34,132 bases of DNA from Christensenellaceae bacterium (lineage in GTDB: Bacteria; Bacillota; Clostridia; Christensenellales; DTU072). Below, piece by piece: positions 2,881 through 24,162 of this stretch (the stretch's first letter is position 1; every line of letters starts with the position of its first letter). The translations under genes were made by a program, and so were the position numbers. The notes below the pieces were generated by a model that was given only the letters and a program-made list of their open reading frames with translations, was not told the origin of the DNA and did no database searches. The stretch is from positions 1 to 34,132 of the forward strand of contig JAITLB010000050.1 in NCBI GenBank assembly GCA_031278175.1. The letters are read 5' to 3'.

Positions 2881-2909
2881 TTGACTAATTTCACTATTTG
2901 TAGTATCAT
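2881..2909 (+). promoter_or_regulatory. Sigma70-type promoter of the giant surface-protein locus
   Basis: TTGACT (2881-2886), exactly 17 nt, TATCAT (2904-2909), about 80 nt before ATG 2990. Confidence 0.6.
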
Positions 2910-2937
2910 ATAGGGGACTATAAAATCATCCCTAGTT

Positions 2938-2956
2938 TACGCGCGCGCGCGTGCGT
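2938..2956. other. Alternating pyrimidine-purine (CG)n tract in the 5' leader
   Basis: T-A-(CG)6-TGCGT, 19 nt of strict Y-R alternation, between the predicted promoter and the GGAGG (2973-2977) of the giant gene. Confidence 0.85.
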
Positions 2957-2989
2957 CTAGTAGTGGTTCAACGGAGGTATTACCCGGAC

Positions 2990-5900
2990 ATGAATAAGCG
3001 AGGCAAACTCATATCTGGTATTTTTATTGCGATCATAGTAATGGTCGTTTCAATAGTGATTGGGACAATCTCCGTTCTTGATGCTGGTGCTAAAACTGAA
3101 GATATTTACGCTTCATTATATAATGCAGCACCTACTGACGGCACTGTTATAAAAAACACTAATTTTTGGTACACAAACGATAACACGGTTAATGGAACAT
3201 ATCTTGATGACTCTGCAAATTCTGGAATGCAAGTTGGGAGTAATACCCTGCAAACGAGAGGCACGGCAACTGGCGGTAATGTGTCAGGTAGTAGCAATCC
3301 TGTAGCTGGAACTTTTAGGGATTTTAGAATGTCAGGAATTACATATTATGCTGCAACCGCTACAGCATTCGAGGGTACTGCTTCAAGTGATGGTGCTGTA
3401 TTAGCTTCAAATATCAGATTTAATACAACCGATAAACAATCTTATGGATTAGCTTCTGCGATCAAGGATTCTGGTTTTCAAGTTAAGTTTAATTTTGATG
3501 CTATGCTAGATAATCGTGCAGGTACAACTACGACATTTGTTGTCTATTTGAATTGGTATCCAACAGGTCCTGCTGGATCTAGAGTTGCAAACACCAGCAA
3601 AAATGTTACTATAGATTCAGGTGCTAGCAATTTAACTGGTTCAGGATATGAATTAACTGTACCTACCGCAACAGATATTGATTTAGCTAAGGCGGTCCTT
3701 GAGATTGTTATCTATATTCCTAGTAATGTTAACTTTAGAATTCTTTCACCTGCAGCGGGTGCTGAAGTTATGTTGTCAAGCACTGTAAATATTGCGACAA
3801 CCTCATCGCTAGTTATATCGGGTGAAAACCGTAACACTTATACAATACAATCAACACAACAACTAAACACGGGCGGGTATGTCAAACCTGGGGACACAGT
3901 GGAATTTACCACTTACGCATACACTTCTTCTCTAAGCAACAGATATGTATTTTCTGATGTTTATCCATATGTTATGGGTTTGCAAAATTTATCAGGTACC
4001 GAAAAATTTATTGGAAAACAAAATGGTATGACCTACGATGATACAAATCCCGCATGCATAGTTTATGAAAGCAATGGAATTGAATTAACAAAGGTTACTG
4101 AAGAGTATCAGAAAGTAACAAACAACCAGGGCGAATTTGTTTCATATAAGACATCGTTTATTGTAGGTCAAAATTTGTCGATGGGCACAGTGCTCAATAT
4201 CCGACCTAAAATTATTATCGGTGTAAATTTTGATGGGTCATTCGTGCAGAAGTATCAAAAAGAAACGGGACCATATACTATTTCTATAGATTCAGTTATA
4301 CCCTCTATGCCAGAAATTGCGCCAAATTCGACGTTAGGAAAGGCAATCAGTCAAGAAGCATGGTATACAGCGACCAATTCACCTACATTGGAAATGTCGA
4401 GCACTTCACATACAATAGCAACTGATGAGCACACGTTTGCATTTGTTTTCCCATCTTATGTTTTATCTATTGATGCATCCTTATATGATTTCAGTTCATA
4501 TATTACTCAGTTTGAAATTGATGAAGGTGCTGTCTCTATACCAGTAACTACAAATTTAGACGGTTCCAGCATACCAGGCAATGTACAACGTCTTTTTAAA
4601 TATACCAGTGATCGAGGCAGTTCAATGCCCGCAAAAACAAAATCTTTAAATTTTACTGATGCTGGTGTGTTTACAGTATTTTTAGTTTCAGTAGATCTAG
4701 CTGGCAATAAAAGCACTGTAAGAACTTATGTAAATGTAATGGTAGATGCTAGCGAACATACTGTGCTTGCATCGTATCGTGTTGGGGATGGGACGATTAC
4801 TCTTGGTAAAGGTGACATACGTTTCCGCTATATTATAGGTGAAAACGAACACAATGCCGATGGAAGTTTAAAGCTAACCGCTTCAACATACTTATCACAA
4901 GCTAAATATTTGACCACTAGTGGTGCTAAACGTGGCGAGTATGTAACGATAATGTTAGTTATGAATGCTACGGCATATTCATACTACAGACTAGAAAGTT
5001 ATATGAACTATGCAAGTAGTCAACCAGCCGTACAACGGCCAACGATGTTATTAGAAGGTGTAGACAGATATATTTATATGCGCTTTATAATGGATGAAAC
5101 TAACGTAGAGTATGGCGGTATCGCTCTTGAATGCGCCTTGCTTGAGAGAGCGCAGATTATTATAGCTCAACGTGAATTCGTATATAGCGGATCACCTCTA
5201 AATTTGAGCACTTATACACAGGTGTCATCTATAACAACGACAGGTTCAACAGGTTCTATTTTAGCTGGGATATCGACATCATTTAAATATTATAACATTT
5301 ATACAGTCACAGCAAGCATTTCGGGCAATGTGACAACTATAACTTACGATGGGTCAAATTATACCGTTAATTCGCTTAGCCCAATCGTTCCGCTATCAAC
5401 ATATACAATGGGCGGAAAGAGTTATTACTCTGCTACAGTTAGTCAGGGTACTGGTGGAGTATATAATTTAAGGATTGTACCTTTAGACGAATCCATGTTA
5501 ACAATTACCAATGCTGGCGAATATTGGTTTATTTCTGAAATAGCGACTCAAATTGGGACACCGAGATATTACGCTGTCAATGAAAATACCGTTATCATAA
5601 ACAAGGCATCTCCAGCTGTTTTGGGGTTGACAGCGACACCTATAACATACGGTTCCTCTATTGATAAACTGGATTATATTAGTTATTCAACTAGTGGTGT
5701 TGCATATTCAGCCGCCAATGGAAATATCAACATTTTCTATGACTTACAAACACCCACCTTAGAAGTTAAAAGACTTTATCTTACTAGTTCAGGAGTATGG
5801 GGCGAGTACATTATAAAAACACCAACGGCAGACAGTCAAGACTATATTATGCCTGAAGCTGGCACTATAAATATAAACGTAGAGTTTTCACCATTTGATC

Positions 5901-8900
5901 CAAGACTAAAGCTAGATGGTACACCTTTGCTACCTGATGAAGTCGCCACTTATACCTCTAACTATACATTTTATTTAAATTTCTATAACGGTATTACATT
6001 TACAGGTGGAAATGGTTTCTATGCAGCTAATTACAGCATAACTACCTATACATTCGCATGTGTAATAAATCCAGCGCCCGCTACAATCGAAATAGACGAA
6101 GAAAGTGTTGCTAATTTAGTCTACAATGGAAATTCATTAGTTCCTGCATATAATACTGTGCCAGCTGATCTTTCATATATAGCACTATACGAGCTGCGCA
6201 ATCCAAATGGTTCTTATGGTCAACAATCAGCAGCGCTACCTGTAGTAGCTGGTGAATATAGGGCAAGTTATTATGTTCAGGAGAAGAATTACCACTCAAG
6301 TACGATAATAAGCACTTTTGAAGTTAAGAAAAAAAGCGTTAGCTTAAGTGTCGAGGATCAATATTTGACCGCTTGCGAAGAACAAGGTTATACAATGGCG
6401 GTTACTGATGATGGTAAAACATATAATCGCTACTTTAGTAGTATATACGGTCGCTTAGTTTCGCCACCTATGACTGTGACTTCGGATAATCCCGATTTGC
6501 AACTAGCAGGTATAGGTTATAAATACGCGTTCAAGTTGGTGCGCGATTTAGATGGAAATCCAATAAGTTCTACGTATTCAGAAGAAATGTCGTTAGCTGA
6601 TGTAAGAACAGAAATGCGAGCTGCGGGCGCATTCTTGCTGAGAATAGTTGTAGATGCAACTAATTTTACTGGCGAGTTTACTTTGATGGTATGCGTGTCC
6701 CCCGCTGATGCACTAGATGCGACAGTTGCATCTTACTTTACAATTAGTTTCCCAGCATTAAAGTCGTCTTACGCTGTATATAATATTGACAGCACTACAC
6801 CTATGGTCAATCAATATGACACCACCATAGGGCATATTGAATATGGACAAACAATAGCTGAGCTACTTGAAAATAACCAGATATTCCAAAATATGCAAAT
6901 TGCTTTGATTCAATTTACATACACATCTGGCTTAGCTACTGTAGAGGGGCGGTTTAGGTTATACAGCGAAGAAGAAATAACCGATTCTTATGAGGTAAGA
7001 ATTGATGGTAAATACATATTGCCTGTTTTATATAATTCAAGCAATCAAATTATTCCGTATTATACATACATTGTCTGGGAAGCCGGGCATTATGAAGGTG
7101 AGGTGTTTATTCCAAACACAGGGTTTAAACCAATTACTCGTGAAATATCACTTTATGTAGCACGTGCAACCCCGACATTTGACAAGGTGTTTTTTGACCC
7201 TATAGTTTATGAGACCACTCTTGATGATCTAACTTGGTTCGGTGCACCACATGTAGCCGGTAACAATGCTGACATAACAGGTATTGTAGGATACGACTTA
7301 ATTTCAACACAATATCAATTAGTTCCATCGAATGTGGGATATGCACCTGAAGTAGGTGTGACTCCTGTCACATATAGATTTGTGCCAAGCGATAGAAAAA
7401 ATTATCGAGATGTTGAATTTACTGTCAACATAACTGTAACTCAAAAAACTGCTGGAATTACAATCGAGGAAAACCCGACTGCTCAATATGGAGATATTTA
7501 TGTAGCGCCTATAGTTACCACAAATCCTGCCAGCAGAGTTATACAATATGAGTATTTTGACGGGGAAACACCTATAACAATAAATTCAGCTACACCAGTG
7601 GGTGTGTATAGATTAGTTGTAACAATAGTAGATAAAAATTATGTAGGCACAGCTGAAACAAACTACACAATCACAAAAGCGCAACTGGAATGGAATGTTC
7701 AACCGACACCACAACAAGGTGAACTTCGGTTCGGGATAAAAGTTGATGAAATTATTTTAACAACCAGCGGATCATTAAAGACGAGGTATGGCACATATAT
7801 TCTTCCTGGAACATTTAAGTGTCTAATGGCACAAGGCATCGAATCCGGCGATTACATTCCAACAGGAACGCATGTTGTTACGGTCTCATTCACACCAGCT
7901 AGTATTGTGACTGCAGGTTTTTATGATAAGTATATAGTAAGTGAATTAACTATAAATATCGGGATATTAAAAAACGTTCCTGATGTAGCAGTAACTGGAA
8001 CAACAGTTACATACGATGGTACGCAAAAATCTCCAGTTATAAGTTTTGGTAATTTAATAGATGATTATTCCATAAATTACAGCGTAGTGTATAATGATTT
8101 ATCGACAGGAGCTGAGCTAGAGGGACCACCAATTAATGCTGGATCATACAATGTTACAGTCTTAATAGATGATCCTAACTATGAAAAAGTGTCCGATCCT
8201 GTAGTATTTAAAATTAACAAGGCACCTGTAGATGTTAAACTAGGGACATATGTATTTGGTTATGATGGCGCATCTCATGCTCTTACAGTAGAGTTATCAG
8301 TTAAAGACTTAGCATATTCCATTGCGTATGTAAACAATGGGGGTGTTTCAAGCAGTTCACCACAATCGGCAGCTGGCAAGTATAGAGCTGTTTTAGAGCT
8401 GAATGAATCCAACTATGCGATTAATGGAGTAGGTAACTACCCATTCTATATTATACCGCTTGTCAATTATGTTGATCTTGGATCACTTGTACAATCGTAT
8501 GGTGATGTATATGGTATAGATGCTGGATTCAACTATGACAATGTTACTTCGGTTACCTACTACAAGCAAGAATCTACGGGGATCGAGTTAACTAACGTCA
8601 ATAAAGCAATAGTAGACAAATATTTACTATCTTTCAAAATTCAGGTTAATGGTTTAATTTGTGATGTTATAGCTTCCATCGGAGATCAAGAAGATGTCTA
8701 CTATTGTAGAACCATCATCAACGACAATGAAACCGATGCTACATTTGTATTGCATACATCTGTTGAGACAATTGAAGATTTATATCTCACAATTGAAAAA
8801 GCTGTTGTAGATATTAATGTATTACCTCTTTATACAACAGTTTACGACACGAAGCCGTACAATACAGATTCAGTGTATGCCATTGCTGAAGTTGATGTAA

Positions 8901-11900
8901 AATTTGTTTATTCTTACTATCAGATAATAGATGAATTGCAAGGCGAAAAACTAGATCAAGCTATTAATGCTGGTACATATCGTTTTGTAATAGAGATAGA
9001 GGATCATAATTATGCTGGCACTGTTGATACCGTCTTAGTTATTCAAAAAGCGGATGCTGATGCAAGACAAGCTCCTTCACTCGATTCTAGATATAGTTAT
9101 AGCGATGATCCTAAGACTGTTAAATTTAGACCAGATGGTTCTGTTATGTTCAATGGTTCAAACATTGCTAACTCTGGCGCGTGGGAGATTACAACACAGG
9201 ATTTTGACAAACTGGGGGTTGGGGCTTATGATAATATTACATTTAAGTTTACACCCTCGGATACTAGTATTAATTCCGCTTATGTAATCGGCACTGCAAC
9301 TGTCAACAAAAAAGACATATCGGAATACGTAAGATACGATGATGCAGATTTACTACAACAATATAATCTAGCACAGCATAAAGTCAGAGCGTATATAGAT
9401 ACCGCTGTAGCTGATCTATTTAAAGCAAGTGACAAAAATCTAACTCTAATAGTCACTTACAATGGTTCGACATATCAACCCGAAAGATGTGGTTTATATT
9501 CCATAGTCATAACGGTATCTAGCACTTGCTACGAAGGTTCGATAGGAAGTGGTGCTGACAAAATAGAGATGCAAATTCAGACGGCGACCCCGTCGATTAT
9601 ATTGCCGACTATTGCAAGCATAAAACTAGGGCAAACATTACAAAGTTCAAGTTTGTCTGGGGGGTTGGCATATATTGGTGACACGTCACACGCAGTAGAG
9701 GGAGAGTTCTTCTTCGAGAATAGCGCATACAAACCAGATAAATTAAATTATAGAACTATATATTTAGGGTTTGCGCCTAAAGATTATAACAATTATAATC
9801 AAGTCACATTCGGTGCTAGTGTATTAGTGCTCCCAGTAGATGACAGCGAATACAACTATAGTTACGGCACAGTAAATGCCGCTGAGTTTATTTACGGTGA
9901 ACCTTTATCAGCGGTAACAATAACATTGACAAGTCAGTCGTTGGTACGTGGAAGTGTTGAATGGGTAAATCCGAACTATATTGCAAAAAACGGCGAAAGT
10001 GTTCAGTATCGCTTTATCCCAGCTTCTTCGCAAACTAACGATCAAGGTATGCCATATTATGATGTTTATCCTATTGTTTATGGCAACATACAAGTTGTGG
10101 TGAATGATGCTACATTCGTGTTTGATTCCGAATCATTTGCGACAGTTTATGTTGGTGAAAGACTACAAGAGCTTAGGTTAGATATTAAGATCCGAAATGC
10201 AAAAACTGGAGCCCTAGTTACAGATTATAATTATACTCTAGATGTCGGGGATACCGGTGTGGCGCTAAATACTCTCATTGAAGAGGCGCATGCAACTGAT
10301 TCTCCTAATCTTGATATTAGATTACATATAACTAAGAATTCATATACTGCAGGGAATTTCGTTCTTAAAGATATAAAGGTTAGACATTATCTTTCACAAG
10401 ACCGATTTAATGCAGCGGTAAATTCAAAAATGTATGATGGTGTTGCAATAAAAGACACATCTATTATACAGATGGCAGAAGTTAATGTTGCAAACACAAC
10501 TTTCGAGCCGATGCCTGGTGCGTATAAAATTACAAATATAGTTTGTGATGGCAATACTGTGGATTCAGTTTTAGCGGCTGGTGCATACACAATTAGCGCG
10601 TCCTATGACGATGGAACACATTATGGCACATTCTCGTTTACATTCGTTGTTGATAAACGGAATATATCTAATGCTATATCACCTGCAGTTTATACAAGTA
10701 CTGGTACCGAAGAGGGTGTAATCTTCAAGACAGTAGAATATATATATGGTTCAAATGTGGATGCATTCGAATTAGAGTTTTCCGAGTTTGCTAATGGATC
10801 TGTTATTGAATACGATCCTGATGCAATATTGCCGTATATAACATATAATTATTATAATAACATATCTAAAGATATGCCATACGGTAGCACAGCACCTCGA
10901 AACGCTGGTATGTATTATGTAGAAGTATCAATTTCAGTTGAATGTCCCGAATATGTAGGCATGGCAGCATTTATGTATCGAATCGATCGCAAAGAAGCCA
11001 ATGTGTATTTCCCAAGTGCTGGAGGTTATACATTCCAGTATGGGCAAATAATTTCCATAGTTCCAGTTATAGATGTTACAGAGACAGAGGGCTATTATAT
11101 TACTTATGATGGCAATCGCGCTGTCCCAGAAAATGCTGGTGAGTATAATGTGGTCGCGCATTTAGATGGCAAGAATTTTTACGGTACATCTTCAGCTGTT
11201 AAATTAATAATTCAAAAAGCAAAACTAGTAGTTGCGCAATTCCCAACCGTGTCGGGTTTGACTTACGGGCAGAATCTTGGAAGTGCTAAAATTACTGGCG
11301 GCATAGTCATGAATCCAACAACAGGCACAATTGCTAATGGTGCTTTTGCGTTTATGGATCCAAACATTGTTGCGTTTACTGCTGGCGCAACAAATTTAGT
11401 GTATTTGAAGTACGAATATAATGACAATTATGAGATGCTTGAAAACATCCCCGTAAATGTGTCTGTTGGTAAAGCCACAACGAGCATAGACATAATCAAT
11501 GCAACTGCGGTATATACTGGCGGTGAGGTATATCCACAAGTAAGAGCGGATACCGCTTATCCAGTTTCCTTTGACATGGTGTTCAGACGTAACGCGGGTG
11601 TTGTTGCGCCAATTAGTGCTGGAACTTACACCGTGACAGTAACCATTAATGATGATAATTACAGTGGTGAAATTACGGGAATAATATTTACTATAACTCC
11701 TGCACCAGTAATAGCAAATGAAAATCCCGTAGCATCTCCAGTTGTTTATGGTTCGGCACTTAGCACTAGTGTTTTAGTTGGTGGATGGGTTCGCTATTTC
11801 GATACAGGACTAGGTAGAGGTTCTTTTACATATCTTTATCCTGGATTAGTACCAGGTGAAGAACAGCGTATAGGTGCTGCCGGACCACATGACGTAGGGA

Positions 11901-13591
11901 CATACGAAGTTTACTATATATTCACTCCAGATGACACACAAAATTATCTACCCTACACTGGAACTGTTGAAATAGTTGTAGCAAAAGCCAATATTATAAT
12001 TGAAGTTATTAACAACAATTTTGAATATGGACAGTCAGTTTCAACTGGCCCGCAATTTATTACAACCCCAGGCGGTATAGAAGTAAAAAATGATGAATTT
12101 GAGACTTGGAAAGATTATCTGGAATCAAAACATCCTCAAGCGGGAGTATATAGTTTCACTGCTACAGTAAATACTGATTATTATGTCGGTGAAAAGACAT
12201 ACAATATACTTGTTTCTAAAAAGGCGATTGACTTTTCATTCGTCAATGAAAACGGCACTAAAGTTGACAAGTACTCGACCGTATATAGAGTCAGTTTAAA
12301 CGCATCTATAGCGATATTAGTTGAGTCTGTACACGAAGATGATAAGTTGGAAACTTTGCAAACTAACGTGATATATTCGTATATTACTACAGACGGGACA
12401 AATACTATGACATTTACTCCACCATCAAAAGTTGGTGAGTATATTGTAAATGTAAGTTTATCAAACAATAATTATTATATAAGACCTAGCGAATCCAAAA
12501 TTGAATATGTAATCGAGCGTGCGCCGGTCACAAGCATCGAGTTTGATACAGATACTATCAGTAATCAAGTATACGGGTCTGTCGCAATACCGATAATTAA
12601 TATTCAACCTGTAGGTGTAACTTATCAGTTATTGTTTGATAACAAACCTACTTTGCCTACAACTGTCGGTGATCATAATATATTAGTTATAGTAGATGAT
12701 CCGAATTATGTACCAACAACAAAGCAAAACAGATTCCGCATACTACCAAAGAAGATAACCATTGAAGATATTGTTGTAGCAAATAAAGCTTTTGATGGTA
12801 CGTCTGGGTTGCAAATTTCTGGGTCACTCAAAGGTGTCTTGCAAAATGATGAAGTTTATTTAACAATGACGGCACGCGTTAAAGGCGGATATAGTGATGT
12901 TGGTAGTTATGATGTAGAGATAACTAGCTGGGAATTAAAAGGATTACATGCTGGGAATTACACAATTGCCGAATCGCCTGTTTATGCCACCAAAGTAAGT
13001 ATAACGCGGTTAACCGTTGAAGATAATACGGGCAGTGGTTATATAATGTCAAATGTTGGATTTAATCCGAATGTGACACTAGTTATATCTGATGTATATT
13101 CTGCTAGCAATTCAACCTCTGTGTTCACTGCTATTTTAGGTCAACGCGCTGTAGCTAAGTCGGTTACTGTAAAAGAAAACGGAAATAATAAGGTGTTAGA
13201 TGAGAAAGTGAAGTTCTATGTTTTAATACCAGAAAGTTATAGAAAATCCAGAAATCTCACATTCCAACCAGTTGGTGGTCTTGAAGGTGAAGTTATATCG
13301 TTCTTAATTGAAGGTGATTATGTCACATTCTATGCAGATCGTTCAGGAGAAGTACTAATTATCGCTCATGATTTTCCATATTGGTTAGTTATTATAGGTG
13401 GTGCTCTTCTGTTCATTGTTGCAGCGTTTGTATTTATAAGAGTTATGCCTGCTCGTAGGGCATATAAGACTACATCTCGCTTACGTCAAGCGCATGGAAT
13501 GCATGCATATCAGAAGGTAACTTCCCAATCTAAGCAAATAAAAGACAAAGATAGATTGGATGAGTCAATGTATAATGATTATTTCGATTAA
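2990..13591 (+). CDS. Giant cell-surface protein with many MBG/YDG Ig-like repeats, N-terminal signal/TM and C-terminal TM anchor
   Basis: Single ORF (2951..13591). The better start is ATG 2990 (MNKRGKLISGIFIAIIVMVVSIVIG) preceded by GGAGG. Recurrent 'AGxYxVxVxxxxNYxG' and 'FxPxDxxNYxxV' units, YDG-like block 'FDGTSGLQISGSLKGVLQNDEVYLT...GNYTIA', C-terminal helix 'YWLVIIGGALLFIVAAFVFIRVM' followed by a basic tail. Confidence 0.93.
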   Translation: MNKRGKLISGIFIAIIVMVVSIVIGTISVLDAGAKTEDIYASLYNAAPTDGTVIKNTNFWYTNDNTVNGTYLDDSANSGMQVGSNTLQTRGTATGGNVSGSSNPVAGTFRDFRMSGITYYAATATAFEGTASSDGAVLASNIRFNTTDKQSYGLASAIKDSGFQVKFNFDAMLDNRAGTTTTFVVYLNWYPTGPAGSRVANTSKNVTIDSGASNLTGSGYELTVPTATDIDLAKAVLEIVIYIPSNVNFRILSPAAGAEVMLSSTVNIATTSSLVISGENRNTYTIQSTQQLNTGGYVKPGDTVEFTTYAYTSSLSNRYVFSDVYPYVMGLQNLSGTEKFIGKQNGMTYDDTNPACIVYESNGIELTKVTEEYQKVTNNQGEFVSYKTSFIVGQNLSMGTVLNIRPKIIIGVNFDGSFVQKYQKETGPYTISIDSVIPSMPEIAPNSTLGKAISQEAWYTATNSPTLEMSSTSHTIATDEHTFAFVFPSYVLSIDASLYDFSSYITQFEIDEGAVSIPVTTNLDGSSIPGNVQRLFKYTSDRGSSMPAKTKSLNFTDAGVFTVFLVSVDLAGNKSTVRTYVNVMVDASEHTVLASYRVGDGTITLGKGDIRFRYIIGENEHNADGSLKLTASTYLSQAKYLTTSGAKRGEYVTIMLVMNATAYSYYRLESYMNYASSQPAVQRPTMLLEGVDRYIYMRFIMDETNVEYGGIALECALLERAQIIIAQREFVYSGSPLNLSTYTQVSSITTTGSTGSILAGISTSFKYYNIYTVTASISGNVTTITYDGSNYTVNSLSPIVPLSTYTMGGKSYYSATVSQGTGGVYNLRIVPLDESMLTITNAGEYWFISEIATQIGTPRYYAVNENTVIINKASPAVLGLTATPITYGSSIDKLDYISYSTSGVAYSAANGNINIFYDLQTPTLEVKRLYLTSSGVWGEYIIKTPTADSQDYIMPEAGTININVEFSPFDPRLKLDGTPLLPDEVATYTSNYTFYLNFYNGITFTGGNGFYAANYSITTYTFACVINPAPATIEIDEESVANLVYNGNSLVPAYNTVPADLSYIALYELRNPNGSYGQQSAALPVVAGEYRASYYVQEKNYHSSTIISTFEVKKKSVSLSVEDQYLTACEEQGYTMAVTDDGKTYNRYFSSIYGRLVSPPMTVTSDNPDLQLAGIGYKYAFKLVRDLDGNPISSTYSEEMSLADVRTEMRAAGAFLLRIVVDATNFTGEFTLMVCVSPADALDATVASYFTISFPALKSSYAVYNIDSTTPMVNQYDTTIGHIEYGQTIAELLENNQIFQNMQIALIQFTYTSGLATVEGRFRLYSEEEITDSYEVRIDGKYILPVLYNSSNQIIPYYTYIVWEAGHYEGEVFIPNTGFKPITREISLYVARATPTFDKVFFDPIVYETTLDDLTWFGAPHVAGNNADITGIVGYDLISTQYQLVPSNVGYAPEVGVTPVTYRFVPSDRKNYRDVEFTVNITVTQKTAGITIEENPTAQYGDIYVAPIVTTNPASRVIQYEYFDGETPITINSATPVGVYRLVVTIVDKNYVGTAETNYTITKAQLEWNVQPTPQQGELRFGIKVDEIILTTSGSLKTRYGTYILPGTFKCLMAQGIESGDYIPTGTHVVTVSFTPASIVTAGFYDKYIVSELTINIGILKNVPDVAVTGTTVTYDGTQKSPVISFGNLIDDYSINYSVVYNDLSTGAELEGPPINAGSYNVTVLIDDPNYEKVSDPVVFKINKAPVDVKLGTYVFGYDGASHALTVELSVKDLAYSIAYVNNGGVSSSSPQSAAGKYRAVLELNESNYAINGVGNYPFYIIPLVNYVDLGSLVQSYGDVYGIDAGFNYDNVTSVTYYKQESTGIELTNVNKAIVDKYLLSFKIQVNGLICDVIASIGDQEDVYYCRTIINDNETDATFVLHTSVETIEDLYLTIEKAVVDINVLPLYTTVYDTKPYNTDSVYAIAEVDVKFVYSYYQIIDELQGEKLDQAINAGTYRFVIEIEDHNYAGTVDTVLVIQKADADARQAPSLDSRYSYSDDPKTVKFRPDGSVMFNGSNIANSGAWEITTQDFDKLGVGAYDNITFKFTPSDTSINSAYVIGTATVNKKDISEYVRYDDADLLQQYNLAQHKVRAYIDTAVADLFKASDKNLTLIVTYNGSTYQPERCGLYSIVITVSSTCYEGSIGSGADKIEMQIQTATPSIILPTIASIKLGQTLQSSSLSGGLAYIGDTSHAVEGEFFFENSAYKPDKLNYRTIYLGFAPKDYNNYNQVTFGASVLVLPVDDSEYNYSYGTVNAAEFIYGEPLSAVTITLTSQSLVRGSVEWVNPNYIAKNGESVQYRFIPASSQTNDQGMPYYDVYPIVYGNIQVVVNDATFVFDSESFATVYVGERLQELRLDIKIRNAKTGALVTDYNYTLDVGDTGVALNTLIEEAHATDSPNLDIRLHITKNSYTAGNFVLKDIKVRHYLSQDRFNAAVNSKMYDGVAIKDTSIIQMAEVNVANTTFEPMPGAYKITNIVCDGNTVDSVLAAGAYTISASYDDGTHYGTFSFTFVVDKRNISNAISPAVYTSTGTEEGVIFKTVEYIYGSNVDAFELEFSEFANGSVIEYDPDAILPYITYNYYNNISKDMPYGSTAPRNAGMYYVEVSISVECPEYVGMAAFMYRIDRKEANVYFPSAGGYTFQYGQIISIVPVIDVTETEGYYITYDGNRAVPENAGEYNVVAHLDGKNFYGTSSAVKLIIQKAKLVVAQFPTVSGLTYGQNLGSAKITGGIVMNPTTGTIANGAFAFMDPNIVAFTAGATNLVYLKYEYNDNYEMLENIPVNVSVGKATTSIDIINATAVYTGGEVYPQVRADTAYPVSFDMVFRRNAGVVAPISAGTYTVTVTINDDNYSGEITGIIFTITPAPVIANENPVASPVVYGSALSTSVLVGGWVRYFDTGLGRGSFTYLYPGLVPGEEQRIGAAGPHDVGTYEVYYIFTPDDTQNYLPYTGTVEIVVAKANIIIEVINNNFEYGQSVSTGPQFITTPGGIEVKNDEFETWKDYLESKHPQAGVYSFTATVNTDYYVGEKTYNILVSKKAIDFSFVNENGTKVDKYSTVYRVSLNASIAILVESVHEDDKLETLQTNVIYSYITTDGTNTMTFTPPSKVGEYIVNVSLSNNNYYIRPSESKIEYVIERAPVTSIEFDTDTISNQVYGSVAIPIINIQPVGVTYQLLFDNKPTLPTTVGDHNILVIVDDPNYVPTTKQNRFRILPKKITIEDIVVANKAFDGTSGLQISGSLKGVLQNDEVYLTMTARVKGGYSDVGSYDVEITSWELKGLHAGNYTIAESPVYATKVSITRLTVEDNTGSGYIMSNVGFNPNVTLVISDVYSASNSTSVFTAILGQRAVAKSVTVKENGNNKVLDEKVKFYVLIPESYRKSRNLTFQPVGGLEGEVISFLIEGDYVTFYADRSGEVLIIAHDFPYWLVIIGGALLFIVAAFVFIRVMPARRAYKTTSRLRQAHGMHAYQKVTSQSKQIKDKDRLDESMYNDYFD
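5155..13020 (+). repeat. Protein-level tandem Ig-like (MBG type, last one YDG-like) repeat region
   Basis: About 20-25 diverged units recognisable in the translation, e.g. NAGSYNVTVLIDDPNYEKV, NAGTYRFVIEIEDHNYAG, SAGTYTVTVTINDDNYSG, QAGVYSFTATVNTDYYVG, VTYRFVPSDRKNYRDVEF, VGTYEVYYIFTPDDTQNY. Boundaries approximate. Confidence 0.8.
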
Positions 13592-15230
13592 ATTAAGAGT
13601 GCTATTATTTATTTTAATAGTAGCACTCAGTATACTTTTGTGTCTAATACCTTCGGTAACCACCAATGCAGAGGAATTAGATATATCAATTCAACAAGTA
13701 TCAGAAGGTGATCATTTTTCTGCAGTTGAAGGTGTACTGTACGAGTTTTTGTGTCCGCTCCGCGTATCGCTACTGACCGTTGAACTGGATCGCGATTATG
13801 ACAGTGTGCCCTTAACCGACACGATAGCACTAACTTCATACGCTACGGCTAAATTTGGAACTTATACATTTTTTGAGAATGGCGAGTATGTTATAACTGC
13901 GCTCTTGGATGGCGATGAGACAATAGTTAATTCGATTCATATAACGAGCATCGATTATAAGGCACCATATCACAATAACACTAATACAGGCAAAGATAAT
14001 TTTGAGTTTGAGGGTGCATACCTTGCATGGTATCGCGCATATGTAGAAGACCAATTCTACGAGCAAAAGCAAGATGTCTCTAGCGGATTAGAGTGTGTAA
14101 TTATACTTCGTGATATGCTTAGCGGCGGTGGATTAGCCGAAGTCATGCCTGAATCTAGTGATGATTTAGATGCATATAGACAAATAACGCCAGATGTAAT
14201 AGAGGGTTTGGATGTTGATATAATAGCAAGAAAAGATTCAATATCTAAATTTGGCATAACGAGGAATGTGTATGTCGAATTTGACGTTGATAGGTATGGT
14301 GGTTCATACTATGTCTATGCTATAGATCGAGTAGGCAATGTCATGCTCAGTAGAATGTTTGACATATATGAGCGTTCAACATACTTCATCGAATTATCAA
14401 ATGGTGAAACACTAGACTACACTGAAGCAGTGCAGATAGCATCTGAAAGGATCAACACACAAAGCGAGGAATATGCTAAACATTTAATAGATGCGCTAAG
14501 TGTCGCGTTGGATCGGCTTAAATTGAGTTTCTTTAATGGCGATGAAGATGAAATTATCGCAGCAGCGACAGCATTTGACGTAGCGCAAATAAATTTCACC
14601 AATGCAAAGCTTGAATTTAATGTAGTGATAACTGGAAGTGATTTGTTTCCAGGCGCGATCAATGTACTAGACTTCAATTCAAGTTCTATAACAGACGCAA
14701 GGAAGGGTGATACGGCACTCCTTACAATTAGCTTGTTAGAGTATAGAGAGGATAACCCAGTATTTAACAATGTGCAAAACGTTTTGCAAGTATCAAAGGC
14801 GCAACGCTTGTTTACGGTTAACACGCAAGTTACCTTAAACGGAAATGCGGTCAAGCCAGCGGTGACAATCAAATTGTATTTTGTAATTCCTGAGAGTTTC
14901 AAAACGGTAGGTGTTGCAATTGAATCTAGCGGTGCAATTGTGCCTACTGCATTTGAAAAGGGTGGCGAATGGTTAACAATTGATGTAACGCTTGCAAATT
15001 CTAAATATTTCGTTATAATATACGATGAAAGCTTTAATCAAACCAACTACGCGCTGTATATAATTATAGGTTGTAGTGTCGGTGGGGTTGCTCTAATAAT
15101 TGGCAGTGTTTTACTTGTTTTGCATTTTAAGAAGGCAAGAGGTAAAAAGACTATCAGTGAGATGGAAGTTAGTGAGGCTACTAATATTAATACTGTTGTA
15201 AGAAAGCGCAATAACAGGAAAAAGCGATGA
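13560..15230 (+). CDS. Secreted single-pass surface protein; C-terminal module homologous to that of the upstream giant protein
   Basis: Signal-like N-terminus (LRVLLFILIVALSILLCLIPSVTTNA), C-terminal TM (YALYIIIGCSVGGVALIIGSVLLVL) and very basic tail. Overlaps the giant ORF by 32 nt (or 17 nt if ATG 13575 is used), suggesting translational coupling. Confidence 0.88.
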   Translation: MSQCIMIISIKLRVLLFILIVALSILLCLIPSVTTNAEELDISIQQVSEGDHFSAVEGVLYEFLCPLRVSLLTVELDRDYDSVPLTDTIALTSYATAKFGTYTFFENGEYVITALLDGDETIVNSIHITSIDYKAPYHNNTNTGKDNFEFEGAYLAWYRAYVEDQFYEQKQDVSSGLECVIILRDMLSGGGLAEVMPESSDDLDAYRQITPDVIEGLDVDIIARKDSISKFGITRNVYVEFDVDRYGGSYYVYAIDRVGNVMLSRMFDIYERSTYFIELSNGETLDYTEAVQIASERINTQSEEYAKHLIDALSVALDRLKLSFFNGDEDEIIAAATAFDVAQINFTNAKLEFNVVITGSDLFPGAINVLDFNSSSITDARKGDTALLTISLLEYREDNPVFNNVQNVLQVSKAQRLFTVNTQVTLNGNAVKPAVTIKLYFVIPESFKTVGVAIESSGAIVPTAFEKGGEWLTIDVTLANSKYFVIIYDESFNQTNYALYIIIGCSVGGVALIIGSVLLVLHFKKARGKKTISEMEVSEATNINTVVRKRNNRKKR

Positions 15231-15245
15231 AGCTAGGGAGCGGTG

Positions 15246-16091
15246 ATGACACATATTAAAAGCACTATAGAATATTTATTGTTTTTAGGACGAGGAAAGC
15301 GATTGTTGACCATCGGCACGTTAGCAACTCCTGTAGGTTTTGCCTTAGCGTGGTTGTTGCCTAGTGGCAATTATACAAAGTGGATTGTCAATTATAAGAC
15401 GACACCTAACAATTTTTTAAGCATTTTCACGTTTGATGTAAATATCCTACATTATGGTATAGCTTCACTTGCTACAATACTTTTGGTAATTGCATCGGCG
15501 TCAATAATGGTGAGTGTGATATCACGATCATTGCGGGTTGGTGTCTTTCATTGTAGGAAGCCTTTTTCTGATTTTAATGATAGTTTATTGCCAGTTTTTG
15601 CAGGTACATCTACTTTTGTTATTATGATAGTGGTGTATAAAATTGCACTTACACTATTCTTAACATTAGCAAAAGCCATCCGCAATTATTATGTTTCATT
15701 GACGTTTTCGATGATTACACTAATCATTATGATTGTCATAGCTTCTATAGCTTTTTCGCTTATGTCATTATATATTCCAATCATGTCAATTATGGGCGTG
15801 AGATATAAAGAAGCTATGGTAATGAGTATTAGAAAAACAAATCATAGAATAGCGCCAATAGCTGTAGGTATGTGGACACCGATAATAGTTAAGACTGTTG
15901 TTGGATCATTGGTTGCGTTACTTAAGATGGCACTGATGTCATTTATAGTAGATATTGTCTTGAATACTCTCTTGTTTGCATATCTCGTGTCTTATATGAT
16001 GATAACCTATTATGACATTGAGAACTTAAATAGAGAAGATTATGATAAATACAAACTAACCAGCAAGGACAGAAAACTGAAAAATGGGTAA
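15246..16091 (+). CDS. Polytopic membrane protein, unknown function
   Basis: ORF 15243..16091, ATG 15246 with GGGAG upstream; several hydrophobic helices; 15 nt after the previous stop. Confidence 0.85.
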   Translation: MTHIKSTIEYLLFLGRGKRLLTIGTLATPVGFALAWLLPSGNYTKWIVNYKTTPNNFLSIFTFDVNILHYGIASLATILLVIASASIMVSVISRSLRVGVFHCRKPFSDFNDSLLPVFAGTSTFVIMIVVYKIALTLFLTLAKAIRNYYVSLTFSMITLIIMIVIASIAFSLMSLYIPIMSIMGVRYKEAMVMSIRKTNHRIAPIAVGMWTPIIVKTVVGSLVALLKMALMSFIVDIVLNTLLFAYLVSYMMITYYDIENLNREDYDKYKLTSKDRKLKNG

Positions 16092-16097
16092 AGAGAT

Positions 16098-17192
16098 ATG
16101 ATATTTAAAAATTCATTTACGATACTGAGTCTGAACACCAATCTAGTGTTCAAAACTCTACTCTACACTATCGTTTTAACTGCGCTTTTTATCGCTGTTT
16201 TAACTAGTATAGTAACTCCGCTAATAAACGAAATATTTGTTCAAGTTGATATTATTGAGCAATTAAAAATCCCTATAGATCATTGGCTTAGAGGCGAGAT
16301 TACTTCTTCAGGCGAATTATTTAGAGCTATCCGTCATGCAATCTCATTCAAACCTGATGCGACAGGCATGGTGCTCGTCAATGTAATAATATTATACGTT
16401 CTCTTGATGTTCTTCATGCACATGACGAATATCCCTATAACTAACGTACTTTTCAACAAAATGAGCCAGGGCTATAATGAGCGTTTCCACATGTCGCTTA
16501 TAGCATCTTTGCCTAAGTCAATTGTATATTCATTTATTACAGCCGTTACAGGTTCTATTATAGACTTGTTGATTTTCTTTGGATGTATGTCATTGTTATC
16601 TGCACTGTATACTGTCTTTAACATATTTACACTGACAATTACTATAGCCATTATTCTTATACTAGTAGCTGGGCGAGTGACATTATTTAGTCAATGGGCA
16701 CCAATAATCATATGCGAGAACAAAAAGGTATTACCTTCCCTTCTCGAGGCAATAAAAAGCATGCGCAGTGTGTTTGTGCTTGCATATCCATCAATATTAC
16801 TGGCGATGATCATCTTTTTTGCTATATTCATGACGACAATAGCAGTGACATTTGCTATTGTGCCTATTATAGTCATTCCTGCATATATCGTACTATTACA
16901 ATGCATAGGTCTAACAAGTTATTTTACATCAAAAAACAGGAAATATTATATTTCGGATGGTCTGCGTCTCAGTTCTCAATCTGAAATAAGTATAATAAGT
17001 GGCGAATTTGACGATGATTCGATTATCACTGAACCTAGCGAGGTAGAGCCGATAGAAAGCGGCGGCGAACTACCGAATACTATTAGTCCTAGTGAGAGTG
17101 AGACACCTGTAGGTGCCCAAGACGACAAATCGAGCGAGTTAGAAATTGCTGAAGAAAACGCCCAAGCAAATCAAGGTAGTGACGAAGAATAA
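16098..17192 (+). CDS. Polytopic membrane protein with acidic Ser/Glu-rich C-terminal tail, unknown function
   Basis: Starts 6 nt after the previous ORF; several hydrophobic helices; tail 'TEPSEVEPIESGGELPNTISPSESETPVGAQDDKSSELEIAEENAQANQGSDEE'. Confidence 0.85.
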   Translation: MIFKNSFTILSLNTNLVFKTLLYTIVLTALFIAVLTSIVTPLINEIFVQVDIIEQLKIPIDHWLRGEITSSGELFRAIRHAISFKPDATGMVLVNVIILYVLLMFFMHMTNIPITNVLFNKMSQGYNERFHMSLIASLPKSIVYSFITAVTGSIIDLLIFFGCMSLLSALYTVFNIFTLTITIAIILILVAGRVTLFSQWAPIIICENKKVLPSLLEAIKSMRSVFVLAYPSILLAMIIFFAIFMTTIAVTFAIVPIIVIPAYIVLLQCIGLTSYFTSKNRKYYISDGLRLSSQSEISIISGEFDDDSIITEPSEVEPIESGGELPNTISPSESETPVGAQDDKSSELEIAEENAQANQGSDEE

Positions 17193-21527: not shown

Positions 21528-22859
21528 ATGGATAGCAGTTCTAGTGCTTCACAGAGCATGCGCGAGAGGAACATTGATGCCATAATCAATTATTTTGAGC
21601 GGGGTTGCAAAAGACAACAAAACGGCAAATTGGGCATTGAAATTGAGCATTTTATCATTGACAGAAACGATGGTAAATCTGTAGATTATTACGGTTCAAA
21701 TGGTGTCGAGTCATTATTAGAATCGCTCGCTGAGACGTATAGCATCAAGAAATACTCTAGGGGGCATTTGATAGCATTAAGCGATGGTAACAAATGCGAG
21801 ATAAGTCTTGAGCCAGCTGCGCAATTAGAAGTAAGTTTAGGCATGTACTCTAAGATAGTCGAATTCAAAACGGAATATTCAAAATTTAGAAAGGTTATTG
21901 ACCCAATTTTAGAAAAGCATAATTATGCATTGATCACGACAGGATACAGACCAAACAGTCGCGTTGATGATCTCAATTTGATTCCTAAATTGCGTTACGA
22001 ATTGATGGATAAGTATTTTAGAGGCTTAGGTGGGTATGGTCCTAACATGATGCGCTCAACAGCGGCTACTCAAGTTTCTATAGACTATTATTGCGAAACC
22101 GATTTCAAAAAGAAATTTAGACTAGCAAATATTTTAACACCATTATTTGCAATTCTAATGGACGGCGAAAATGTATTCGAGGGCGAACACGGCAAAACAA
22201 TGGTGCGTACGCTAGTGTGGGACAGTGTTGACACAGACCGCTCGGGCTTTGCTTGTGGCGCTTTGGATAATATCAACTTCGGATTCAAGGATTATGCGGA
22301 GTATGTTTACGATCGTCCGTCAATTATGGCGCTTGATACTAGTCAAGAATTCAAATACACAGATAGCACCCCAACTAACCAAGTATACGGCGAAGTTTTG
22401 ATGTCTGACCTGGACATAACGCATGTGTTGTCGATGTTTTTTCCATATGTAAGACTCAAAAATTTCATTGAAATAAGAATGGCCGACAGCATGTCGATAG
22501 AATATACGTTAGGCTTTGCAGCTTTAATCAAAGGCTTATTTTACAGTCAAAAAAATCTTACAGCGTTACTGAAAATTTACGAAGATATAAAAACTAAAGA
22601 CGCGATAGATGCATTTGATGTATTGAAAGAATATGGGCTTGATGGAACAATTTACGGTAAAAATGTGTCGACTCAACTCTGCGAAATAATTTCATTAGCA
22701 AGCGATGGGTTAACTAAAGGTGAAAAGCATTATTTGAAGCCATTATACAAGCTTGCAACAAATACTAAGCGAGGGGCGCTACAAGTTGATGACTCAAAAA
22801 AGCAATTTGAAATAGGAGATAAGTTTAAGCAATATGGATATGAAAATTGCGACAGATAA
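21528..22859 (+). CDS. Glutamate-cysteine ligase-like enzyme (GCS2/plant-type GshA-like carboxylate-amine ligase)
   Basis: 'GIEIEHFIID', 'SLEPAAQLEVS', 'RYELMDKYF...GPNMMRSTAATQVSIDY', 'WDSVDTDRSGF' match the glutamate-cysteine ligase core; AAAGGCGG upstream. Confidence 0.8.
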   Translation: MDSSSSASQSMRERNIDAIINYFERGCKRQQNGKLGIEIEHFIIDRNDGKSVDYYGSNGVESLLESLAETYSIKKYSRGHLIALSDGNKCEISLEPAAQLEVSLGMYSKIVEFKTEYSKFRKVIDPILEKHNYALITTGYRPNSRVDDLNLIPKLRYELMDKYFRGLGGYGPNMMRSTAATQVSIDYYCETDFKKKFRLANILTPLFAILMDGENVFEGEHGKTMVRTLVWDSVDTDRSGFACGALDNINFGFKDYAEYVYDRPSIMALDTSQEFKYTDSTPTNQVYGEVLMSDLDITHVLSMFFPYVRLKNFIEIRMADSMSIEYTLGFAALIKGLFYSQKNLTALLKIYEDIKTKDAIDAFDVLKEYGLDGTIYGKNVSTQLCEIISLASDGLTKGEKHYLKPLYKLATNTKRGALQVDDSKKQFEIGDKFKQYGYENCDR

Positions 22860-24162
22860 GTATATTAGCATACTTGAATCTGATATTAGTGTGGTAGCTA
22901 AAGATTTTAAAGCAGCAAGTGAGTATTTAAAAACATCTTCAGCCGTGTTCACAAGAGGTCAATTGCAATTTTTAGCTGTGCCCAAATTGTTTACAAATGA
23001 CGCTTACTCAGTAATAGAATCAGCAGCAAAGACGATATACAATATATTAGATAAAGTAATATGCCGCTACTTAGTAGACAAAGAGTATAGAAAGCTTTTC
23101 CCATTCTCAAAGCAACTAGAGAATTTAATATTGACACCATGTGGTTATGATGTAAAATTGCCTATAGCAAGAGTAGACATATTTTTCAATGAGGAGGATT
23201 ACTCATTTAAATTCTGTGAATTCAACGCAGACGGTGCTAGCGCAATGAACGAGGATAGAGAACTAGTTAATGCATGGAAGAACTCGCATATTTGGCGCGA
23301 ATACACTAGCGAGTATAATATGCAATCATTTGAGTTGTTCGCCTCATGGGTAAACACATTTTTAAAGATATATTCAAGTTATGAAGGGAGAGTTGAAAAT
23401 CCTAGTGTAGCAATTGTAGATTTTTTGGATATAGGGACTAAGAGCGAATTTAGCGTGTTTAAAAAAGCGTTCGAGTGTGCTGGAGTGTCTGCTAGAATAT
23501 TAGACATAAGAGAATTAAAATACAAAGATGGGCGCTTGCAAACTATAGACGGGCAACAAATTGACGCAATATATCGGCGTGCGGTCACATCCGAATGTAT
23601 AGAACACTACGACCAAATACAGGATTTCATCAACGCTGTACTAGACAAAAAAGTTTGTTTGATCGGCGGTTTTAGAACTCAAATTATTCATGATAAGAAC
23701 ATCTTCAGGATATTGCGTATGGACCAAAGCAAGGAATTATTTACCGCGCAAGAAAATGCATTTATAGAAGAACATATTCCAATGACATTTAAATTAGAAA
23801 CTAATAGTTTTCCAGTCGAAGATGTTATTGATAATAAAGATAAATGGTTGATCAAACCTGCTAACAAATATGGGTCAAAGGGAGTAGCCACAGGCGGAGA
23901 TTACAACCTCGAGGAGTGGATACAAATTATAAAAGATAGATTAGACGGTGAGTATATATTGCAAGAGTATTGCACACCATATAAAAGGGAAAATCTTTTT
24001 TTCGAAAATGACACTCCCCGCTACGGTGAATATAACAACATGACAGGCATATTTTTATACGCTGGGGTTGTGGCTGGTCTATACTCAAGATTGACGACTG
24101 AGCGCGTTACAACAACGCAAAACGAGGGTAGAGTAGTTTGTTCACTGCTAGTAAATAAATAG
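22834..24162 (+). CDS. ATP-grasp ligase resembling glutathionylspermidine synthase / glutathione-synthetase-like enzymes
   Basis: 'KFCEFNADGASAMNE', 'IDAIYRRAV', 'DKWLIKPANKYGSKGVATGG', 'EYILQEYC' ATP-grasp-like motifs; ORF overlaps the upstream ligase by 26 nt. Confidence 0.65.
   Translation: MDMKIATDKYISILESDISVVAKDFKAASEYLKTSSAVFTRGQLQFLAVPKLFTNDAYSVIESAAKTIYNILDKVICRYLVDKEYRKLFPFSKQLENLILTPCGYDVKLPIARVDIFFNEEDYSFKFCEFNADGASAMNEDRELVNAWKNSHIWREYTSEYNMQSFELFASWVNTFLKIYSSYEGRVENPSVAIVDFLDIGTKSEFSVFKKAFECAGVSARILDIRELKYKDGRLQTIDGQQIDAIYRRAVTSECIEHYDQIQDFINAVLDKKVCLIGGFRTQIIHDKNIFRILRMDQSKELFTAQENAFIEEHIPMTFKLETNSFPVEDVIDNKDKWLIKPANKYGSKGVATGGDYNLEEWIQIIKDRLDGEYILQEYCTPYKRENLFFENDTPRYGEYNNMTGIFLYAGVVAGLYSRLTTERVTTTQNEGRVVCSLLVNK

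Follow-up and report, generated by a model that had tools for sequence, protein, structure and literature searches.

Giant repeat proteins are usually regarded as variable adhesins, and proteins built from MBG domains are often annotated as adhesin-like. Among the closest described systems, Giant1-5 of Apilactobacillus kunkeei are extracellular proteins of 3000-8000 aa that are encoded in a small genome and in which no accessory-Sec targeting domain was found, with Giant1-4 carrying N-terminal beta-solenoids and diversifying largely by intragenic recombination, and Giant4-5 being found only in a few close species (PMC12863079). BAP of Acinetobacter baumannii is a giant array of Ig-like modules that is reported to be highly polymorphic between strains (PMC4647330). 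Serine-rich repeat proteins with an accessory Sec system illustrate how a large surface adhesin can bring its own export genes (PMC6973325).

The locus described here is a block of four successive + strand genes (2951-17192) in a window, the whole stretch of DNA analysed (34,132 nucleotides), that is the entire contig C118 of a 2.68 Mb, ~87% complete assembly of 275 contigs. Its first gene encodes a giant that resembles other giant MBG/Ig-like repeat surface proteins (Pfam MBG_2, MBG_3) in its tandem beta-sandwich stalk, signal segment, C-terminal membrane anchor and length of thousands of residues, but differs from them in having a near-fixed repeat number and length across genera, a single copy and a dedicated companion gene. 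With A. kunkeei Giant1-5 (PMC12863079) it shares the character of a very large extracellular protein, whereas here a single giant, inherited vertically, and its one companion extend across a family. Both it and BAP (PMC4647330) are Ig-like arrays, yet the array of the window giant is near-constant in size between genera. In contrast to the serine-rich repeat/accessory-Sec systems (PMC6973325), the genome has one full SecA (a second match is weak and lies in a 682-aa frame) and the block has no Asp-, SecY2- or glycosyltransferase-like gene, which places the locus outside those systems. A literature search found no paper on the giant protein. The features of the block are as follows.

2881-2909, + strand: sigma-70-like promoter match (TTGACT-17-TATCAT), 10 of 12, correctly placed, not above background
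2990-13591, + strand: giant fibre protein, likeliest start ATG 2990 (the longest frame, from GTG 2951, is 3546 aa)
3128-5230, + strand: N-terminal region of the giant (~residues 60-760), from an 18-orthologue alignment
5363-12763, + strand: MBG-type repeat region of 16 repeats (first at residue 805, last at 3271), from an iterative HMM and Pfam MBG_3
13382-13447, + strand: C-terminal transmembrane (TM) segment of the giant, with the most conserved stretch (GDYxTFYADxSGE...DFPYW) immediately before it
13575-15230, + strand: companion p556, starting at ATG 13560 or 13575, from AF2 model, alignment and family search
13597-13628, + strand: 13-bp hairpin just within the p556 frame (dG -20, z -4.1)
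15246-16091, + strand: polytopic membrane protein m282, first of an order-wide tandem pair (AF2 pLDDT 91.9)
16098-17192, + strand: polytopic membrane protein m364, second of the pair, with an acidic C-terminal tail in the window's genus

The open reading frames are present as an initial annotation had described them, four tightly packed + strand genes, and their coordinates bear out the spacing that it gave, an overlap followed by gaps of 15 nt and 6 nt: the start of p556 overlaps the 3' end of the giant, m282 begins 15 nt past p556 when counted from ATG 15246 (its longest frame is 15243-16091, and its orthologues begin at that ATG), and m364 begins 6 nt past m282. This spacing is compatible with cotranscription. 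Dihydroxyacetone kinase genes lie 3' of the block on the opposite strand. For the giant, ATG 2990, with GGAGG ~10 nt 5' of it, is a more likely start than GTG 2951. The one promoter reported upstream does exist as a match in the correct position, but it is weak evidence because shuffled sequences give 69 +/- 9 such matches where the region itself has 93. An alternating purine-pyrimidine tract, tacgcgcgcgcgcgtgcgt (window 2938-2956), lies between this promoter-like site and the codon at which the giant probably starts. The strong hairpin at 13597-13628 is followed by a T-rich stretch and could reduce expression of the downstream genes; it is missing from the two sister genomes G001 and G002, which rules it out as a conserved attenuator. 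The sole Pfam match in the block is MBG_3 in the giant, with no curated family for p556, m282 or m364, and NCBIfam and PADLOC searches added nothing above cut-off. Elsewhere in the window (21528-24162), a GCS2 (glutamate-cysteine-ligase-like) gene adjoins a gene with a sub-threshold glutathionylspermidine-synthase-type match.

Structurally, the giant consists, from N- to C-terminus, of a signal/TM segment, N-terminal domains, MBG-type repeats, a C-terminal module, a TM segment and a cytoplasmic tail of ~47 aa. It matches Pfam MBG_3 well above the curated cut-off (E 1.4e-36, 124.8 bits against 25, in 9 stretches) and thus belongs among MBG-domain surface proteins. Its N-terminal region retains the motifs WYxxG, YVKxGD, wYTxS and VDxAGN across genera; no Pfam match rose above cut-off there in seven orthologues, so that identification of the head with a known binding domain finds no support. 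Conservation increases toward the membrane. The C-terminus has no LPXTG motif, and sortase (PF04203) was not found in the 87% complete genome, which could be an assembly gap; lacking both the motif and a detected sortase, the giant does not group with sortase-anchored (LPXTG) giant adhesins.

Evolutionarily, the giant was traced through 40 genomes from 11 genera of the family and an outgroup of 58 genomes representing 32 further families of the order, using a profile (A6) of the ~490 residues preceding the C-terminal TM segment at a threshold of E <= 1e-20. It was recovered from 37 of the 40 family genomes, covering all 11 genera, and from 0 of the 58 outgroup genomes. It is almost always single copy, and the two pieces seen in each of two genomes are probably fragments. 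BLAST aligns it with its counterparts in sister genera in a single collinear piece whose ends are in register (47% over 3599 columns in G002, 40% over 3674 in G003 and 28% over 3717 in G005), and returns no match to L078-L081, the other MBG giants of G000. Those four are further very large open reading frames of the same genome (~1950-3770 aa) with MBG_2 matches. The 18 complete giants average 3585 aa (sd 121, range 3335-3824), a statistic of complete genes that leaves aside a few longer open frames (the longest, 4279, in G008). Each of the 18 has 16-18 repeats by an iterated repeat model. For 10-16 of the 16 repeats, depending on which of ten species was compared, the best cross-species match beats the best match within the window protein; therefore, the array is old and is not being reshuffled. 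In the nearest species 15-16 of the 16 repeats match by position and in distant species 4-9, where ~1 would be expected by chance. Judged from these alignments, the giant is one collinear orthologue and not a generic MBG protein.

The companion, p556 (full frame 13560-15230), was modelled by AF2 at pLDDT 82 as a signal segment, two Ig-like domains (~43-130 and ~147-278), a three-helix bundle (288-347), a beta-sandwich (352-489), a TM segment (498-526) and a basic tail, which in many orthologues ends in a lysine-rich, NKSKKKK-type sequence. Its profile recovers full-length or near-full-length relatives across the family, and the gene lies directly 3' of the giant in every uninterrupted contig but one, g8 and g10 included, and also in genera that carry the membrane pair elsewhere; two divergent copies in g8 were detected only with search filters off. 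The exception is G008 (68% complete), in which giant and companion sit on separate contigs and the gene after the giant does not resemble p556. As had been proposed from the window itself, p556 and the giant appear to share a membrane-proximal module, the last sandwich of p556 resembling that of the giant (hhalign E 4e-5, prob 69%), though the module is generic in the order, with partial matches in many other large surface proteins. Attempts to place p556 elsewhere gave little: it has no Pfam, NCBIfam or PADLOC match and its PDB sequence matches are weak and mostly over the TM segment or helices, which does not identify it as a known adhesin; Foldseek returned generic Ig/FN3 resemblance only; and a FIVAR-like identity of the three-helix bundle, suggested by the model, is unsupported by Pfam.

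Sixteen genomes, from genera g1, g2, g3, g4 and g9, carry all four genes in intact order on one contig (G000-G005, G010, G016, G018, G023, G028, G030, G032, G036, G038, G039), although in several of them a contig end cuts the giant itself, and G007, G013, G026 and G034 are consistent with the block across contig breaks. Recurrence of this gene order in 16 genomes puts the block far outside what chance would give. Its outer flanks differ, being dihydroxyacetone kinase in g1, YjeF in g2, Pta/TmcAL in g9, ffh in g4 and, in g3, a phage-like terminase in part and LarA in another part. In g6, where the pair is the only part of the block on its contig, the flank is Lon; in g5 and g8 the pair lies at loci apart from giant and companion, and in the three g10 genomes, which keep giant and companion, no m282 or m364 homologue was found. 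One genome of g3, G012 (96% complete), lacks the giant, the companion and both membrane proteins, through either co-loss or one missing stretch.

The initial annotation's two multi-pass proteins are borne out, m282 by a confident polytopic helical fold in its AF2 model and m364 by ~6-8 hydrophobic segments in its homologues, and the two are probably distant relatives of each other in sequence (hhalign prob 92%, E 6e-7). A sequence search found no solved relative. By Foldseek, m282 weakly resembles CysZ (6d79; prob 0.97, TM 0.62 by target length) and CTL1/PNS1 (prob ~0.9), with nothing better than E 0.1, and the ABC-transporter and GPCR rows reached prob ~0.2 at most, so that an ABC-type or other known exporter was rejected. 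One of 18 m282 homologues matches GPDPase_memb (PF10110) at E 1.2e-4, its 21.4 bits lying under the Pfam gathering threshold of 29.6, and neither m282 nor m364 can be assigned to that family; the CysZ/CTL and PF10110 resemblance is a fold lead, not membership. Profile searches of 98 genomes of the order found m282 in 50 and m364 in 61. In a sample of 118 genomes of the class, m282 turned up in just 3, the window genome among them. In at least ten other families the tandem pair stands at other loci, with no companion match there and no giant genome-wide. Its neighbours in those families look like housekeeping genes (valyl-tRNA-synthetase-like with HAD hydrolase, RsmI-like, GroEL-like and SerC-like), names that were mostly read from ORF sequence, with a Pfam check only for ValRS/HAD neighbours inside the family. 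As a raw observation in surface-protein-rich genomes, the pair in g5 and g8 is often close to a further very large open reading frame, no more than one or two genes away (1361 to 3875 aa; L068 8077-19704, L151 12089-19900, L147 2-7795, L129 3304-11178, L071 15303-19388), in g8 usually with a ~280-aa gene in between. An m364 homologue of another family (L142 8488-9774) is extended at its C-terminus by a stretch that matches FtsK gamma weakly, below cut-off (E 2.6e-4).

In trees built from the C-terminal region of the giant and from the concatenated pair, linked and unlinked genera lie on opposite sides of single branches, and in the pair tree the linked, unlinked and other-family pairs are each confined to one side of a branch. 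Genus g10 falls within the linked side. The most economical history is that the pair is old, that giant and companion arose at the level of the family, and that the two were joined once, with a single loss afterwards.

How far these genes form one system was weighed against this history. Giant and companion do co-occur family-wide, and the linkage of the four genes is real, but the dedicated four-part display or secretion apparatus that had been suggested for them is not supported. If all four were one machine, the polytopic pair would be a dedicated insertion, export or anchoring device for giant and companion, as might be read from a block that stays intact in 16 genomes while its flanks change and from the joint absence of all four in G012; against this, the four components are also found apart, the pair occurring in at least ten other families where the giant is absent, unlinked in g5 and g8, and undetected in g10 beside a retained giant and companion. 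Because m282 and m364 are an older pair, widespread without the fibre, we consider a single dedicated machine improbable. The genome's several other MBG giants, and a membrane-proximal module common to many surface proteins of the order, would suit an ordinary MBG/Ig-like adhesin of a repeat-rich lineage with incidental neighbours. We judge this explanation rather unlikely, though less so, since the giant is unlike other MBG giants in being a single, near-universal orthologue of constant length with a conserved partner gene.

The presence of the giant in 37 of 40 genomes with the companion directly behind it argues instead for a family-defining, two-component surface system of giant and companion that originated and was retained in one Christensenellaceae-labelled family, and to which the older pair was appended, an explanation in which we place somewhat better than even confidence. 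In such a system, the giant would be exported by the ordinary Sec route and held in the membrane by its C-terminal TM segment, in line with one SecA and no sortase found, and would project, head up, a stalk of ~16-18 MBG-type beta domains bearing the N-terminal head. The companion, encoded by the adjoining gene, most likely joins the conserved base of the giant in a hetero-complex, a contact suggested by adjacency and by a module that the two share in part and that is generic in the order. The giant's constant length, its fixed number of repeats, its single copy and its near-universal presence favour a structural role or constitutive tethering over a phase-variable adhesin, and constant length is compatible with adhesion as well. 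The m282-m364 pair would be separately inherited, having become linked behind the companion in one clade, where it may at most assist the fibre or be co-regulated with it. A bolder proposal, a family-specific envelope organelle in which a fixed-length, membrane-anchored fibre of ~16-18 repeats and its base partner recruited the ancient pair as a membrane assembly factor, seems to us a long shot; if true, it would mean a sortase-free and accessory-Sec-free route to a surface fibre of defined length.

The locus illustrates how misleading a conserved gene block may be, since two of its four genes have a separate, older history. It also presents a protein of ~3.5k residues with nearly the same repeat number in almost every genome of an 11-genus family, paired with one companion, and this constancy points to a constitutive structural or tethering job. 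For a lineage represented here by assemblies only, the giant offers a clean marker and target.
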